Positions 29,977-35,552 of a DNA stretch of 64,000 nucleotides are shown in pieces. How positions within the stretch are numbered: position 1 is the first letter of the stretch; each line of letters opens with the position of its first letter. The stretch is from Agromyces mediolanus (GTDB taxonomy: Bacteria > Actinomycetota > Actinomycetes > Actinomycetales > Microbacteriaceae). Both the position numbers and the translations under genes were made by a program. The stretch spans positions 596,799 to 660,798 of the forward strand of contig NZ_BMRJ01000002.1 in NCBI RefSeq assembly GCF_014648575.1, in the 5' to 3' direction. Below the pieces are notes generated by a model. It was given only the letters and a program-made list of their open reading frames with translations, ran no database searches and was not told the origin of the DNA.

Positions 29977-30729
29977 TCAGCGAATCACGCCCTCCGTCAC
30001 CACCCCGTCGCGGAGGTGCAGCCGCCGCTCCGCCCGCCGCGCCACGGCCGAGTCGTGCGTCACGATGACGAGGGTGAGCCCGCGATCCCGGCGGATGCCC
30101 TCGAGCAGCTCCAGGATCTCGTCCCGCGTCGCCTCGTCGAGGGCGCCCGTCGGTTCGTCGGCGAGCAGCACCTCGGGCTCCTTCACGAGCGCCCGGGCGA
30201 TCGCGACGCGCTGCTGCTGCCCGCCCGACAGCTCGCCCGGCATGTGCCCGGCCCGGTCCGCGAGCCCCACCGCGGCCAGCGCCTCGCCGGCCCGGCGCGT
30301 GCGCTCCGCCGCGGCGACGCCGAGCGGCGCGAGGGCCGCTTCGACGTTCTCCTGCGCGGTGAGGGTCGGGATCAGGTTGAAGCCCTGGAACACGAAGCCG
30401 AGCTGCGCCGCGCGCACCCCGGCGAGCTTCGCGTCGGGCAGGTGCGACAGCTCGGCCTCGCCGAGCACGACCCGTCCGCTCGTCGGCCGGTCGAGCGCGC
30501 CGAGCATCTGCAGCAGCGTCGACTTGCCGCCACCGGTGGGCCCCTGGATGGCGACGTGCTGCCCGGCGGGGATCTCGAGCGTCACGTCCTTCAGCGCGGT
30601 CACGGTGCGCTTGCCCTGATACTGCTTGGTCACGTGGTCGAGCCGGTACATGGCGGCGGTGCTCCTCTGGGTCGGGCCGCTCGGCGGGGCGGCGGTGGCG
30701 CTGGGCGGGGTGGATGCCGCGGGGCTCAT
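29977..30729 (-). CDS. MacB/LolD-type ABC transporter ATPase
   Basis: A 250-residue ATPase with Walker A GPTGGGKST at residues 63-71, Q-loop FVFQGFNLIP, signature LSGGQQQR and Walker B LLADEPTGALD, as in MacB/LolD-type exporters. The ATG at 30729 overlaps the permease TGA (ATGA). An alternative ATG at 30651 (residue 27) has GAGGAG 11 nt upstream and would drop a Pro/Ala-rich leader. The C-terminus ends in repeat-like sequence. It powers the adjacent permease. Confidence 0.93.
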   Translation of the reverse strand: MSPAASTPPSATAAPPSGPTQRSTAAMYRLDHVTKQYQGKRTVTALKDVTLEIPAGQHVAIQGPTGGGKSTLLQMLGALDRPTSGRVVLGEAELSHLPDAKLAGVRAAQLGFVFQGFNLIPTLTAQENVEAALAPLGVAAAERTRRAGEALAAVGLADRAGHMPGELSGGQQQRVAIARALVKEPEVLLADEPTGALDEATRDEILELLEGIRRDRGLTLVIVTHDSAVARRAERRLHLRDGVVTEGVIR

Positions 30730-32243
30730 GCGACGCTCCGCAGGGCTTCGGCCGGCCGCAGCCGGGCGGCGCGCCAGCCGCCGATGACGCCGGCGAGCAT
30801 TCCGCCGAGCACGGCGAGCCCGACGGCGATCGCGATGACGCTCAGGGTGACCGGGGCGCTCAGCACGACCTCGGTCGCGGTCTGGCTCGCGGCCGCGCCG
30901 AACGGTCCGCCGGCCATCCCGCCCGGAGGGGCGCCGGCCGAGGCATCCGCTCCCTGCATCGCACCGGGACCGCCGGCGGTGAACCCGCCCCCGGTGCTGC
31001 CGCCGAGCGTGAGCCCGAGCAGGTTCACGACCCAGATGCCGGCGAGGCCCACGACGAGTCCCGCGGCGCCGCCGATGAGTCCCTGCACGAGGGATTCGCC
31101 CGCGACCTGGCCGACGATGCGGCGGTTGCGCCAGCCGATCGCCTTGAGCGTGCCGAACTCGCGGGTGCGGCGGGTGACGCCCTGGATCGTGAACAGGATG
31201 GCCGTGAGGAACGCCGCCGCGAGCACGGCGATCGAGACCCAGAGCCCGAGATTCGAGATAAGCGCGGAGGCGCTGCCGAGCGAACCGGAGACCTGCGCCG
31301 CGAGATCCGACTGGGTCGACACGCTCGTCTCCGGCAGCGCCTCCTCGATCGAGGCCTGCACGGCGTCGATCCGGTCGGCCGAGGCGGCCTGCACGTACAC
31401 GTCGCTGACCTTGCCCTCCTGGCCGGAGAGCGACTGCGCGAGGTCGAGCGGCACGTACGCGTTCGACGCGGTCGTCGCGTCCGCGGAGGTCGAGGCGACC
31501 GTGCCGACGATCTCGAACTCGGTCCCGCCGAGCTCGATCGCGTCGCCGACGGCGAGCCCGGCGATCGCCGCGTAGCTCGCGTCGAGCACGGCGACCGCCT
31601 GGCCGGCGTCGGATGCCTCGAGCCCGCGTCCCTCGTCGACGGCCGCCGCCGACAGCGGGCCCACGGCGGCGCCCGCGGGGTCGATGCCGAGCACCGTCAC
31701 CCGGTCGACGTCGAAGGCGCTGCCGCCGGCGCCATCGAAGCCGCCCTGCGGCGGCGCACCGCCGCCATCCGGCGCCGTCTGCACCTCGGTGCCGCCCTGG
31801 TCCTGGCTCATCGCGGGCAGCTCGCCGGAAAAGGTGACGTTCTCGAGCGCGAGCGTCGCGGCCGCGGCCTCGACGCCGTCGATCGCCTGCACGGTGTCGA
31901 GCGCGGCCGCGTCGAAGGTCTGACTGCCGGGCCCGGAGGTGAGCCGGGACTGGCTGAGCGCCGTCGAGCCGTCGGCGGTCTGCCCGGCGCCGGCGTCGAA
32001 CTCGAAGCGCTGCGGGCCGCCGGCGGCGCCGCCCTCGCCGGGCGCGGTCGGCGTCGCGGTGACCGTCAGGTCGGTGCCGACGCCGTAGACGGACTGCAGC
32101 ACCTCGGCCTGGGCGTCGCGCATGCCGGTGGAGACGGCGTTCACGATCATCACGAGCGCGATGGCGAGCGCCATCCCGATCGCGACGATCGCCGTCTGCC
32201 TCCGCCTGCCGGCGAGCTCGCGCCGGAGGAAGGTGAAGAACAT
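30726..32243 (-). CDS. MacB/FtsX-type ABC transporter permease
   Basis: A 505-residue permease with one N-terminal membrane segment (about residues 18-40), a large extracellular MacB-like domain (40-320) and three C-terminal segments starting near residue 330. FTIQGVTRRTREFGTLKAIG is the typical coupling helix region. Unusual are Gly/Pro/Met-rich inserts in the extracellular domain and between the last two segments. ATG 32243 was chosen for GAGAGGA upstream; the frame's first start lies within the promoter. Its promoter carries the same direct repeats as the response-regulator gene at 33256. Confidence 0.92.
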   Translation of the reverse strand: MFFTFLRRELAGRRRQTAIVAIGMALAIALVMIVNAVSTGMRDAQAEVLQSVYGVGTDLTVTATPTAPGEGGAAGGPQRFEFDAGAGQTADGSTALSQSRLTSGPGSQTFDAAALDTVQAIDGVEAAAATLALENVTFSGELPAMSQDQGGTEVQTAPDGGGAPPQGGFDGAGGSAFDVDRVTVLGIDPAGAAVGPLSAAAVDEGRGLEASDAGQAVAVLDASYAAIAGLAVGDAIELGGTEFEIVGTVASTSADATTASNAYVPLDLAQSLSGQEGKVSDVYVQAASADRIDAVQASIEEALPETSVSTQSDLAAQVSGSLGSASALISNLGLWVSIAVLAAAFLTAILFTIQGVTRRTREFGTLKAIGWRNRRIVGQVAGESLVQGLIGGAAGLVVGLAGIWVVNLLGLTLGGSTGGGFTAGGPGAMQGADASAGAPPGGMAGGPFGAAASQTATEVVLSAPVTLSVIAIAVGLAVLGGMLAGVIGGWRAARLRPAEALRSVA

Positions 32244-32274: not shown

Positions 32275-32317
32275 ACGCTAGGCACGCGCGCTATGGCGGG
32301 ACTTTGGCCCGGCTATG
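32275..32317 (-). promoter_or_regulatory. Exporter promoter with three 11-bp-period direct repeats
   Basis: On the minus strand the repeats read CATAGC (32317-32312), CAAAGT (32306-32301) and CATAGC (32295-32290), exactly 11 bp apart. A TAGCGT -10 (32280-32275) follows 9 bp later. This is the geometry of OmpR/PhoB-type activator sites. The rest of the 344-bp gap 32244-32587 holds the 5' leader and repeat cluster 2. Confidence 0.7.
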
Positions 32318-32334
32318 CGTTCTCCCTGGTGCCT

Positions 32335-32580
32335 GGCTCCCTGAGCCTGTCGAAAGGGGCTGGTCGAAGGAGCCCCGTCCGCTTCGACAGGCTCAGCGCA
32401 CCAACGTGGTTCCCTGAGCTTGTCGAAGGGAGCACCCCCGCTTCGACAGGCTCAGCGCACCAACGTGGTTCCCTGAGCTCGTCGAAGGGAACACCCCCCG
32501 CCTCGACGGGCTCAGCGCACCATCCCGTGGTTCCCTGAGCTCGTCGAAGGGAGCCCTCGCCTCGACGGGCTCAGCGCATC
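32335..32580. repeat. Dispersed palindromic repeat cluster 2 (eight units)
   Basis: Copies of the same element as cluster 1 alternate in orientation at about 32335, 32381, 32407, 32440, 32466, 32500, 32528 and 32559. The forward type here ends CTCAGCGCACC rather than CTCAGCGAACC, so the copies within one cluster are more alike than those in other clusters, as expected for local amplification. Confidence 0.9.
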
Positions 32581-32587
32581 GGGCGGC

Positions 32588-33001
32588 TCAGGCCTCGCCG
32601 GCGCGGTTCGCGGCGAGCTCGAGCCCGATGGCGTGCACGAAGCCGCTGACGAGGTCGCTGCCCTCACAGCCGATCCAGATCGCGTACTCCGCTCGGGCGT
32701 CCTCGTCGGCGCGCATCCACTCGTCGAGCCACGCGTCGGCCGCGCGCACGCACGCCGCCCCCGCGGCGCCCTCCCGACGGAACCAGCGGACGGCGACCCC
32801 CTCCGGAGCGGTCATCGGCTGCGCCGGGATCGGCCCGTCGGACTCCAGCGCCACGAATCCGCGCACGTCGAGCGGGGCGACGGCGAGCACCCGGCTCACC
32901 TCGAGCAGGTCGGCGGCGCCCGCGGCGATGAGCAAGTGGCGGCGGGGCGGAGGCCCGTCGTCGACGAGGTCCGGCCGGCGGTTCGGGAGGAAGCACAGCA
33001 T
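32588..33001 (-). CDS. Short SIP-domain protein, iron-regulated
   Basis: A 137-residue protein resembling the C-terminal SIP domain of siderophore-interacting proteins (HLLIAAGAADLLEVSRVL, ALESDGPIPAQP, VRWFRREG, YAIWIGCEG). Full SIPs are about twice as long and carry an N-terminal FAD-binding domain, which is absent here, so it is either a naturally short homologue or a remnant. The ATG at 33001 follows TAAGCT with 6-nt spacing. A near-perfect IdeR/DtxR box overlaps that -10, so expression should rise when iron is scarce. It may help release iron from siderophores (inference). Confidence 0.75.
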   Translation of the reverse strand: MLCFLPNRRPDLVDDGPPPRRHLLIAAGAADLLEVSRVLAVAPLDVRGFVALESDGPIPAQPMTAPEGVAVRWFRREGAAGAACVRAADAWLDEWMRADEDARAEYAIWIGCEGSDLVSGFVHAIGLELAANRAGEA

Positions 33002-33007
33002 GGCAGC

Positions 33008-33030
33008 AGCTTAGGTTTGCCTTACCTAAG
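33008..33030 (-). promoter_or_regulatory. IdeR/DtxR iron box overlapping a leaderless promoter
   Basis: The 19-bp TTAGGTTTGCCTTACCTAA at 33011-33029 matches the actinobacterial iron-box consensus in both half-sites and extends to a 21-bp palindrome frame. The -10 TAAGCT (33013-33008, minus strand) overlaps its promoter-proximal end, so Fe-loaded IdeR would block RNA polymerase directly. Confidence 0.88.
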
Positions 33031-33047
33031 CCGCAAGGGGTGGAGTC

Positions 33048-33198
33048 GGTTCGCTGAGCTTGTCGAAGCGTGCGCGAATTCCCTTCGACAGGCTCAGGGA
33101 ACCACCGGTATGGTCCGCTGAGCTTGTCGAAGCGTGCGCGAGTCCCCTTCGACATGCTCAGGGAACCAGGGGGTCCCTTCGACGAGCTCAGGGAACCA
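33048..33198. repeat. Dispersed palindromic repeat cluster 3 (five units)
   Basis: Copies begin at about 33048, 33081, 33111, 33144 and 33175, in mixed orientation, same family as clusters 1 and 2 (CCCTTCGACAGGCTCAGGGAACC type). They fill the space between the iron-regulated gene and the response-regulator promoter. Confidence 0.9.
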
Positions 33199-33206
33199 GG
33201 GGAGCG

Positions 33207-33248
33207 CACAGCCGGGTCATAGCCAACGCATAGCCCGACGCGGATACT
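33207..33248 (+). promoter_or_regulatory. Response-regulator promoter with three 11-bp-period direct repeats
   Basis: CACAGC (33207), CATAGC (33218) and CATAGC (33229) are exactly 11 bp apart, followed 8 bp later by the -10 GATACT (33243-33248) and, 7 nt on, the ATG. Unit order, period and distance to the -10 match the exporter promoter at 32275-32317, which points to one shared OmpR-type regulator and to autoregulation. Confidence 0.7.
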
Positions 33249-33255
33249 TGGAAGC

Positions 33256-33996
33256 ATGAGCACCCCCGCACCCGCCCGCGCGCCGCAGATCGCGAAGCCC
33301 GACGGCTCGATGGTGCGCGTCCTCGTCGTGGACGACGAGCACTCGCTCACCGAGCTGCTGAAGATGGCGCTGAAGTACGAGGGCTGGGACGTGCGCACCG
33401 CGGGCGACGGGCTCACCGCCGTGAAGGTGGCCCGCGAGTTCCGCCCCGACGCGATCGTGCTCGACATCATGCTGCCCGACATCGACGGGCTCGAGGTGCT
33501 GCAGCGGGTGCGCGCCGACGGTGCGGAGACCCCCGTGCTCTTCCTCACCGCGAAGGACGCGCTCGACGACCGCATCGCCGGGCTCACCGCCGGCGGCGAC
33601 GACTACGTCACGAAGCCGTTCAGCCTCGAGGAGGTCGTGGCCCGTCTGCGCGGCCTGATCCGCCGCTCGACGCTCACCCTCGCCCAGGCGAAGGACCCGG
33701 TGCTCCGCGTCGGCGACCTCACCCTCGACGAGGACTCCTACGAGGTGCACCGCGACGGCGAGCTGATCGAGCTCACCGCGACCGAGTTCGAGCTGCTCCG
33801 CTACCTCATGCGGAACCCCCGCCGGGTGCTCTCGAAGGCGCAGATCCTCGACCGGGTCTGGTCGTACGACTTCGGCGGCAAGGAGTCCGTCGTCGAGCTC
33901 TACATCTCCTATCTGCGCAAGAAGATCGACGCCGGCCGCACGCCGATGATCCACACGGTCCGCGGCGCGGGCTACCTGCTGAAGGCCGCGGAGTGA
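33256..33996 (+). CDS. OmpR-family response regulator
   Basis: A 246-residue DNA-binding response regulator. The receiver domain starts at VRVLVVDDEHS. The phosphoacceptor is Asp70 (IVLDIMLPD) and the conserved Lys is in VTKPFSLEE. The C-terminal winged helix (about residues 150-245) contains ELTATEFELLRYLM and RVWSYDFGG. The ATG is leaderless (GATACT, 7-nt spacing). The stop overlaps the GTG of the kinase gene. It is the best candidate to bind the 11-bp repeats in front of itself and the MacB-like exporter. Confidence 0.96.
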   Translation: MSTPAPARAPQIAKPDGSMVRVLVVDDEHSLTELLKMALKYEGWDVRTAGDGLTAVKVAREFRPDAIVLDIMLPDIDGLEVLQRVRADGAETPVLFLTAKDALDDRIAGLTAGGDDYVTKPFSLEEVVARLRGLIRRSTLTLAQAKDPVLRVGDLTLDEDSYEVHRDGELIELTATEFELLRYLMRNPRRVLSKAQILDRVWSYDFGGKESVVELYISYLRKKIDAGRTPMIHTVRGAGYLLKAAE

Positions 33997-35552
33997 CGCG
34001 GCCGGGCGACCCGGGCTACGCGGCGGAGTCGCGAGCGCGGGCCGAGCGCGGCGACGGCGCGGATGCCGAGGCGCACGCCGGCGCCGAGGCATCCGCCCGC
34101 CGTCGCTGGACCCTGGAGCGCCGCCTCGTCGTCGCGATGGCGGCCCTCCTCGCCGCCGTCAGCGTCGTGGTCGGCGTCGTCAGCGTCACCGTCTTCCACG
34201 GCTCCTCCGTGCAGAGCGTCGACGACGACCTGCGCACCTCGCTGCAGCGCGCCGCGACGGGCATCGCCGCCGTGCCGACCCCCGGCGGCGACGTCGGTCT
34301 CGCGCTCGACGTGCCAGGTCAGTCGGCGGGCACGATCGCGGCCTTCGTGAACCACGACGGCTCCGTCGACGGCGCCCGCTACATCGCCGACGGGGGACAG
34401 GTGCTGACGTTCCAGAGCGGGGCGGTCGCCGAGCTCGGCGACGTGGCCGCCGACGGGCGGGCGCACACCGTCTCCCTCGGTGGGCAGCTCGGCGAGTACC
34501 GGGCGATGGCGACCCCGGTGCTGCCGCAGCTGAACGTCGTCGTGGCGCTGCCGCTCGCCGGCGTGAACCGCGCGACCGGGCAGCTCGCCCTCACCATCGC
34601 CCTCGTCGCGCTCGCCGGCCTCTTCTTCGCGATCGCCTTCGGCACCCTCATCGTGCGCCGCGCCCTCGTGCCGCTCGCGCGGATGACCGACACCGCGCTC
34701 GCCGTGTCCGAGCGCCCGCTCGACCGCGGAGACGTCGACCTCGACGAACGCGTGCCCGTCGACGACCCGCGCACCGAGGTCGGCCGGCTCGGCACCGCCT
34801 TCAACCGCATGCTCGGGCACGTCTCGGGCTCGCTCTCGGCGCGCGAGCAGTCCGAGCGCAAGGTGCGCCGCTTCGTGGCGGATGCCTCCCACGAGCTGCG
34901 CACCCCGCTCGCCTCCATCCGCGGCTACGCGGAGCTCACCCGCCTGCACGGCGGCACGCTGCCCGAGGACGTCACGCACGCGATCTCCCGCATCGAGTCG
35001 GAGTCGCTGCGGATGACCGAGCTCGTCGAGGACCTGCTGCTGCTCGCCCGCCTCGACGAGGGCCGGGAGCTCGTGCACAGCCGGCTCGACCTGCGCACCG
35101 TCGTCGTCGACGCCGTCGGCGACGCCCAGGTCGCCGGCCCCGACCACGAGTGGTCGGTCGAGGTGCCCGAGGGTCCCGTCGAGGTCTCCGGCGACGACGC
35201 CCGGCTCCGCCAGGTGCTCGCGAACCTGCTCGCCAACGCGCGCGTGCACACGCCGGCCGGCACCGCGGTGCACGTCACCGTCACGCCCGAACCCGGCGAC
35301 GGCGAGGACCCCGGCGTCGTCCGAATCGAGGTCGCCGACGACGGCCCCGGTATCGACGAGGAGGTGCGCGACACGATGTTCGAGCGCTTCGCCCGCGGCG
35401 ACGCCTCGCGCTCCCGCCGGGCCGGGTCGACCGGGCTCGGCCTCGCGATCGTGCGGGCCGTCGTCGAGGCGCAGCACGGCACGGTCTCCGTCGAGTCCGA
35501 GCCGGGCCGCACCGTCTTCACTGTCGAGCTCCCGCTCGCCCCCGCCGCCTGA
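33993..35552 (+). CDS. Sensor histidine kinase
   Basis: A 519-residue membrane kinase, partner of the regulator it overlaps (GTGA). The first membrane segment is at about residues 45-68, an extracellular sensor domain of roughly 125 residues follows, the second segment is at 197-222, then HAMP. The HisKA motif is DASHELRTP with His300. The ATPase domain shows NLLANARVHTP (N box), DDGPGID, RFARGD and GSTGLGLAIV. The signal is unknown; together with the exporter it suggests envelope or antimicrobial stress sensing. Confidence 0.96.
   Translation: MTRPGDPGYAAESRARAERGDGADAEAHAGAEASARRRWTLERRLVVAMAALLAAVSVVVGVVSVTVFHGSSVQSVDDDLRTSLQRAATGIAAVPTPGGDVGLALDVPGQSAGTIAAFVNHDGSVDGARYIADGGQVLTFQSGAVAELGDVAADGRAHTVSLGGQLGEYRAMATPVLPQLNVVVALPLAGVNRATGQLALTIALVALAGLFFAIAFGTLIVRRALVPLARMTDTALAVSERPLDRGDVDLDERVPVDDPRTEVGRLGTAFNRMLGHVSGSLSAREQSERKVRRFVADASHELRTPLASIRGYAELTRLHGGTLPEDVTHAISRIESESLRMTELVEDLLLLARLDEGRELVHSRLDLRTVVVDAVGDAQVAGPDHEWSVEVPEGPVEVSGDDARLRQVLANLLANARVHTPAGTAVHVTVTPEPGDGEDPGVVRIEVADDGPGIDEEVRDTMFERFARGDASRSRRAGSTGLGLAIVRAVVEAQHGTVSVESEPGRTVFTVELPLAPAA

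Follow-up and report, generated by a model that had tools for sequence, protein, structure and literature searches.

Direct repeats before a PhoP-like regulator gene and a MacB-like exporter in Agromyces mediolanus: candidate binding sites of the regulator

According to the accessible parts of the published reports, the response regulator PhoP of M. tuberculosis (PhoPR), a protein of OmpR/PhoB architecture, recognizes TCACAGC-N4-TCACAGC by forming a tandem dimer, with higher affinity for arrays of three and four units (PMC4832192). The sites are 7-bp direct repeats with a 4-bp spacer, which gives an 11-bp period, and are located before its own gene; tri-repeats occur in some promoters, and PhoP is autoregulated (PMC4832192, PMC3413638). 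The bases are contacted by Asn212, Val213, Glu215, Ser216, Tyr217 and Tyr220, and Asn212 forms a hydrogen bond with base 3 of the unit, C7 (PMC4832192). PhoR of C. glutamicum (PhoRS) binds CCTGTGAAaatCCTGTGAA, which read on the other strand is TTCACAGG at an 11-bp period. It autoregulates positively and controls phosphate-starvation genes, and the accessible part of the report names no exporter of the MacB-like kind among its targets (PMC3353115). In another system of C. glutamicum, the copper-responsive CopRS, a tandem repeat of 9-bp units with a 2-bp spacer lies between the regulator gene and a divergently oriented target operon; the regulator binds this repeat and activates both (PMC3353115).

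Here, a PhoP-like regulator was analyzed within the window, i.e., the whole stretch of 64,000 nucleotides of Agromyces mediolanus DNA under study. The features of the locus are listed in the table. M. tuberculosis PhoP was the best solved relative of the window regulator (E 4.5e-79). The two proteins shared the OmpR/PhoB architecture, and the gene of each was preceded by direct repeats of 11-bp period, binding to which is putative for the window regulator. However, the unit was mostly TCATAG rather than TCACAGC, CATAG being the commonest form in the family, and the putative targets differed. Four of the six base-contacting residues of PhoP were identical in the alignment, the equivalents of Asn212 and Ser216 being Ser and Leu, respectively. 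As in the CopRS system, a tandem repeat lay between the regulator gene and a putative target operon running the other way; the units and spacer of CopRS are different, and that system responds to copper. The permease resembled MacB-type ABC exporters by its MacB_PCD and FtsX domains and by weak sequence similarity to MacB (E 3.1e-5). Unlike in MacB, the ATPase was encoded by a separate gene, and no MacA-type adaptor was noticed by eye among the neighbouring ORFs.

Table. Genes, repeats and putative promoter elements of the locus (positions in the window)
Feature	Position	Strand	Remarks
ABC ATPase	29977..30729	-	passes PF00005; LolD, MacB and FtsE are the best NCBIfam matches, all below curated cut-offs
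MacB-like ABC permease, 505 aa	30726..32243	-	MacB_PCD and FtsX, above cut-off
Putative -10 of the exporter, TAGCGT	32275..32280	-	9 bp past the last repeat unit
Exporter-side repeat, CATAGC-N5-CAAAGT-N5-CATAGC	32290..32317	-	direct reading; 3 units, 11-bp period
Array of TTCGACAGGCTCAG-type palindromic repeats	32340..32578		by eye; limits approximate
SIP-like (siderophore-interacting) gene	32588..33001	-	PF04954, 27.4 bits against a cut-off of 26.3
Second array of TTCGACAGGCTCAG-type palindromic repeats	33052..33200		by eye; limits approximate
Regulator-side repeat, CACAGC-N5-CATAGC-N5-CATAGC	33207..33234	+	direct reading; 3 units, 11-bp period
Putative -10 of the regulator, GATACT	33243..33248	+	8 bp past the last repeat unit
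OmpR/PhoB-type response regulator, PhoP-like	33256..33996	+	Response_reg PF00072 and Trans_reg_C PF00486
Sensor histidine kinase	33993..35552	+	HAMP, HisKA, HATPase_c; overlaps the stop of the regulator

An earlier note on this DNA had claimed repeats with exact 11-bp steps at 8 and 9 bp from the two -10 elements, and direct reading found both at the positions given there. The CCGGG that it had seen after the first units of both repeats was indeed present; as a signal it was rejected, since it sits in a spacer that is weakly conserved among relatives. Matches to three CAYAGC units were scored with a maximum of 18. The regulator-side repeat scored 18/18 and the exporter-side repeat 16/18, and these were the only two positions on both strands of the window with a score of at least 15/18. 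Order-1 Markov resampling, 4000 times for either 250-bp upstream region, never reached the observed three-unit score. The regulator ATG (33256, plus strand) was found 7 bp past its putative -10, a distance from which the mRNA is perhaps leaderless. The permease ATG was at 32243 (minus strand), and the ORF list also contained a longer form with a GTG start at 32285, between the repeat and the putative -10.

The view of the earlier note that exporter and regulator belong together despite the iron gene between them was borne out by the gene order in relatives. In 67 of the 80 exporter loci compared, exporter and regulator gene were transcribed divergently; two loci had the regulator in another orientation or place, and 11 lacked it in the stretch examined. 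The gaps between the two genes were mostly 140-260 bp. Three Agromyces genomes, which may overlap with the 80-locus set, also had exporter and regulator as divergent neighbours. The permease of A. soli was 91% identical to that of the window and the regulator 100% identical (rounded, over the compared region); the gap was 752 bp in A. soli versus ~1013 bp in the window, so the spacer differs between close relatives. Among the 80 loci, only A. soli carried a SIP-like gene between exporter and regulator. A SIP-like match was also present in the flank of the A. allii locus, but the gap there was 173 bp. Five other loci, those of A. albus, A. bracchium, A. sp. ISL-38, Glaciibacter flavus and Klugiella xanthotipulae, had gaps of 800-2100 bp but no match to the iron gene, and in Rathayibacter VKM Ac-2754 the gap was 2595 bp.

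The SIP-like gene, which would not belong to the module, was probably inserted later between the promoters of exporter and regulator, as were apparently the palindromic repeats, and we infer that kinase, regulator and exporter once formed one unit, split by insertion in the lineage of the window. Of 120 host-family genomes, 47 had the permease; hence, the regulator often occurs without the exporter. Just upstream of the SIP-like gene, at 33011-33030, the sequence TTAGGTTTGCCTTACCTAAG resembles an iron box of the IdeR/DtxR type.

According to the earlier note, a lack of the repeats before the orthologous genes of related genomes would refute its reading; this was not the outcome. The repeats were sought in 91 regulator upstreams of the 120 host-family genomes, the present genome included, and in 52 exporter upstreams; these upstreams overlap in part with the 80-locus set. 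The exact pair CAYAG-N6-CAYAG (period 11, sense strand) was present before 63 of the 91 regulators and 18 of the 52 exporters, when 50 resamplings gave averages of 0.04 and 0.06, respectively; it was missing from the other 28 and 34 upstreams. Other periods from 6 to 21 gave 0-2 upstreams before the 91 regulators, and period 22 gave 23. Before the exporters, period 22 was found in 20 upstreams, the middle unit being degenerate there. The period-11 pair was located on the opposite strand, where the divergent exporter often sits, in 12 of the 91 regulator upstreams. It preceded 12 of 32 exporters with a regulator in the same stretch and 6 of 20 without one (resampling average 0.02), some of these 20 still being within a few kb of a regulator (e.g., 1.6 kb in G017).

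Within the 80-locus set, the period-11 pair preceded 57 of the 67 regulators and 26 of the 80 exporters. Period 12 occurred before 8 regulators, period 18 before 3 exporters and period 22 before 25 regulators and 26 exporters, and all remaining periods from 7 to 21 gave none. The promoter region was defined as the gap between regulator and exporter, or as 300 bp before the exporter; it contained 98 pairs in 20,012 bp versus 5 pairs in 636,908 bp elsewhere in these loci. The distance to the -10 element was also restricted. Among 85 regulator upstreams with sites, it was found after the last good unit at 8 bp (37), 9 bp (11), 19 bp (7), 20 bp (1) or 12 bp (1). Among 68 exporters, TANNNT occurred at 9 bp (35) or 20 bp (11) and at no other distance from 2 to 23 bp. 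Offsets of 19 and 20 bp equal those of 8 and 9 bp plus one repeat unit.

The genome scan proposed in the earlier note was carried out as well. Exact CAYAGC x3 occurred once in the whole 3.86-Mb genome, at the regulator (reversed control 0), and with up to two mismatches it occurred at 5 places, both window repeats included. With up to three mismatches, however, 14 places were found versus 13 for the reversed control, so the relaxed pattern was no commoner than this control. The pair CAYAG-N6-CAYAG occurred 5 times at 4 places (control 3). Genomic uniqueness was therefore strong only for the exact site of the regulator, and weight was placed on position and conservation. Whole-genome counting was rejected for defining the regulon, as pattern and reversed control were about equally common. 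Two sites were discarded as targets: the one at C8:57932 faces the end of a gene, and no clear gene was found at C1:1064417. A weaker three-unit match with 3 mismatches was seen at G000:C1:191326-191353, ~60 bp before another OmpR-type regulator gene.

The genome scan also revealed the same promoter layout before a gene for a small two-helix membrane protein (G000:C1:1157186), and a scan of 8 relatives found the pair before a homologue of this protein in another genus (G058). Homologues were detected in 11 of the 120 host-family genomes by a single-sequence search and in 16 by a profile search at E <=0.01, of which 9 were convincing. A site scoring at least 15 preceded 6 of these 9 (0 of 300 resamplings each), and no clear site was found in the other three (G004, G052 and G073). 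The test was partly circular, because this genome and G058 had been found via their sites and 7 of the 9 homologues had built the profile, G092 being counted apart from G022 of the same genus though almost identical to it. Without this genome and G058, a site was present before 4 of 7 homologues. Four weaker matches were inspected and none had a site; four others were left out. The small protein was found in 22 of 25 Agromyces genomes, with a site at uncorrected P <=0.05 in 16 of the 22, this genome included, and none in 6. Exact pairs before these 22 genes had periods of 11 (6), 13 (3), 9 (1), 18 (1) and 22 (5). The small membrane protein is thus likely a third target of the regulator.

Regulators outside the host family mostly had Asn at the position of Asn212 together with CACAG repeats; a CANAG pair at period 11 preceded 38 of 62 of them, and other periods from 6 to 21 gave 0-4. 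A paralogous group, including second copies in the large-genome family f20, combined His with CAGAG. The residue was tabulated against base 3 for 198 regulators, omitting rows that lacked a scored pair or residue; among the omitted rows were 61 of the 198 upstreams without a pair having both units CA.AG, which include the Asn-type f20 promoters (CTCAG-N6-CACAG). Asn was accompanied by C in 35 cases, T in 4 and G in 1; Ser or Thr by T in 66, A in 5, C in 4 and G in 1; and His by G in 10 and C in 1. Seven rows with incomplete translation, all C, were also omitted here and were recovered in the tree set, which gave 42 C, 4 T and 1 G for Asn; for one row of that set (L097) the translation was a single residue long. 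The exceptions were four Asn regulators of f7 with mostly CATAG, one Asn with G, and one His regulator whose array was mixed.

A quick tree of 143 regulators was made with the helix columns excluded and scored for the classes N, H and S/T (other residues uncounted); on it, the residue changed twice and the motif state 7 times. With only two residue changes, related rows cannot be treated as independent and a sign test is impossible; when the code was tested with correction for phylogeny, significance was out of reach. The exporter promoters were also compared. Three of three Micrococcaceae exporters had CACAG-CACAG, and these genomes, being close relatives, count as one case. They carried an Asn-type regulator, whose own promoter had one CATAG and one CACAG unit. 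Exporter pairs of Microbacteriaceae read at base 3 as TT (17), CT (3), AC (2), TC (1) and CC (1), with no pair in 47; 6 further exporter loci without family assignment gave TT in one and no pair in 5.

These data suggest that a single DNA-reading residue of the regulator and a single letter of the repeat unit have changed in concert. On balance, we lean towards a one-residue code in actinobacterial PhoP-like regulators, where the first residue of the recognition helix (Asn212) would set base 3 (Asn for C, Ser or Thr for T, His for G), duplicates would be insulated by one substitution, and exporter targets would shift along with the regulator's own promoter.

We propose, and consider very probable, that the regulator encoded at 33256-33996 binds the repeats and would thereby activate its own operon, the exporter and the small membrane protein. 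The kinase would phosphorylate the regulator, whose subunits would then line up in head-to-tail order, each taking 11 bp, on TCAYAG-type units covering the -35 region. Placed beside RNA polymerase, it would activate the three promoters, presumably with positive feedback through its own, and the signal may be envelope-related. That the cognate regulator is the one that binds is supported by the covariation of the Asn212-equivalent residue with repeat base 3, seen over two evolutionary changes only.

The sites could instead be bound by another regulator, the neighbouring pair being merely a target. A second PhoP-like paralogue (G000:C1:710035-710739), 53% identical to the window regulator, matches M. 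tuberculosis PhoP nearly as well, with 264 versus 268 bits in pairwise scores only. However, no CAYAG pair precedes the gene of this paralogue in the present genome, its orthologues in other genomes lacked the repeat in 4 of 4 cases and had Gly or Ser at the Asn212 position within a different surrounding helix, and base 3 of the repeat tracks the residue of the window-type regulator. We therefore regard binding by another regulator as improbable.

Somewhat less remote, and still unlikely, is repression of the operon and the exporter by the window regulator through these sites until the signal arrives. In the accessible parts of the reports, C. glutamicum PhoR might repress pitA (PMC3353115), and M. 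tuberculosis phoP is autoregulated via repeats downstream of its start site (PMC3413638). The present sites, however, are all oriented alike and keep a constant spacing of 8-9 bp to the -10 that follows. Such a phase would suit an activator that makes up for a weak -35, and a repressor would not need it, so activation is presumed here rather than repression. Finally, the intergenic region of the window is full of other repeats, and genome-wide the pair pattern was no commoner than its reversed control, as would be the case if the sites were chance or a by-product of a repeat-rich region. This explanation is given almost no credence, because no resampling matched the observed score and relatives keep the repeats at these promoters with the fixed period of 11 and the fixed offset.

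The shifted letter, the accompanying residue and the targets look new relative to the known counterparts, M. tuberculosis PhoP and C. glutamicum PhoR. In the open-access literature, we found neither published targets of this two-component system in Microbacteriaceae nor a published one-residue code of such kind. For a widespread two-component system, the analysis provides a candidate regulon together with a DNA site that can be read. It would tie the MacB-like exporter and the small membrane protein to one sensor, and suggests that PhoP-type regulators may change their specificity through a single residue.

In the 8 relatives, the pair was not enriched genome-wide, with 65 places versus 85 for the reversed control. 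Hence, the site alone does not mark a target, and most such places are due to chance. The contexts of 6 of the 65 places, chosen by eye from the ones not beside a regulator or exporter, were inspected: one was the small membrane protein, three were other genes, and two were without a convincing gene. An exact CATAG pair was located in G073 (G073:C1:3309064) shortly before a 519-aa protein, HtrA-like by eye, and pairs preceded a dioxygenase-like lipoprotein and a YtxH-like protein in G071, both named by eye. Separately, five second copies in f20 genomes (L307-L311) had His at the recognition position and CAGAG before their own genes, and three of these five genomes (G213, G303 and G204) also encoded an Asn-type copy preceded by CTCAG-N6-CACAG.
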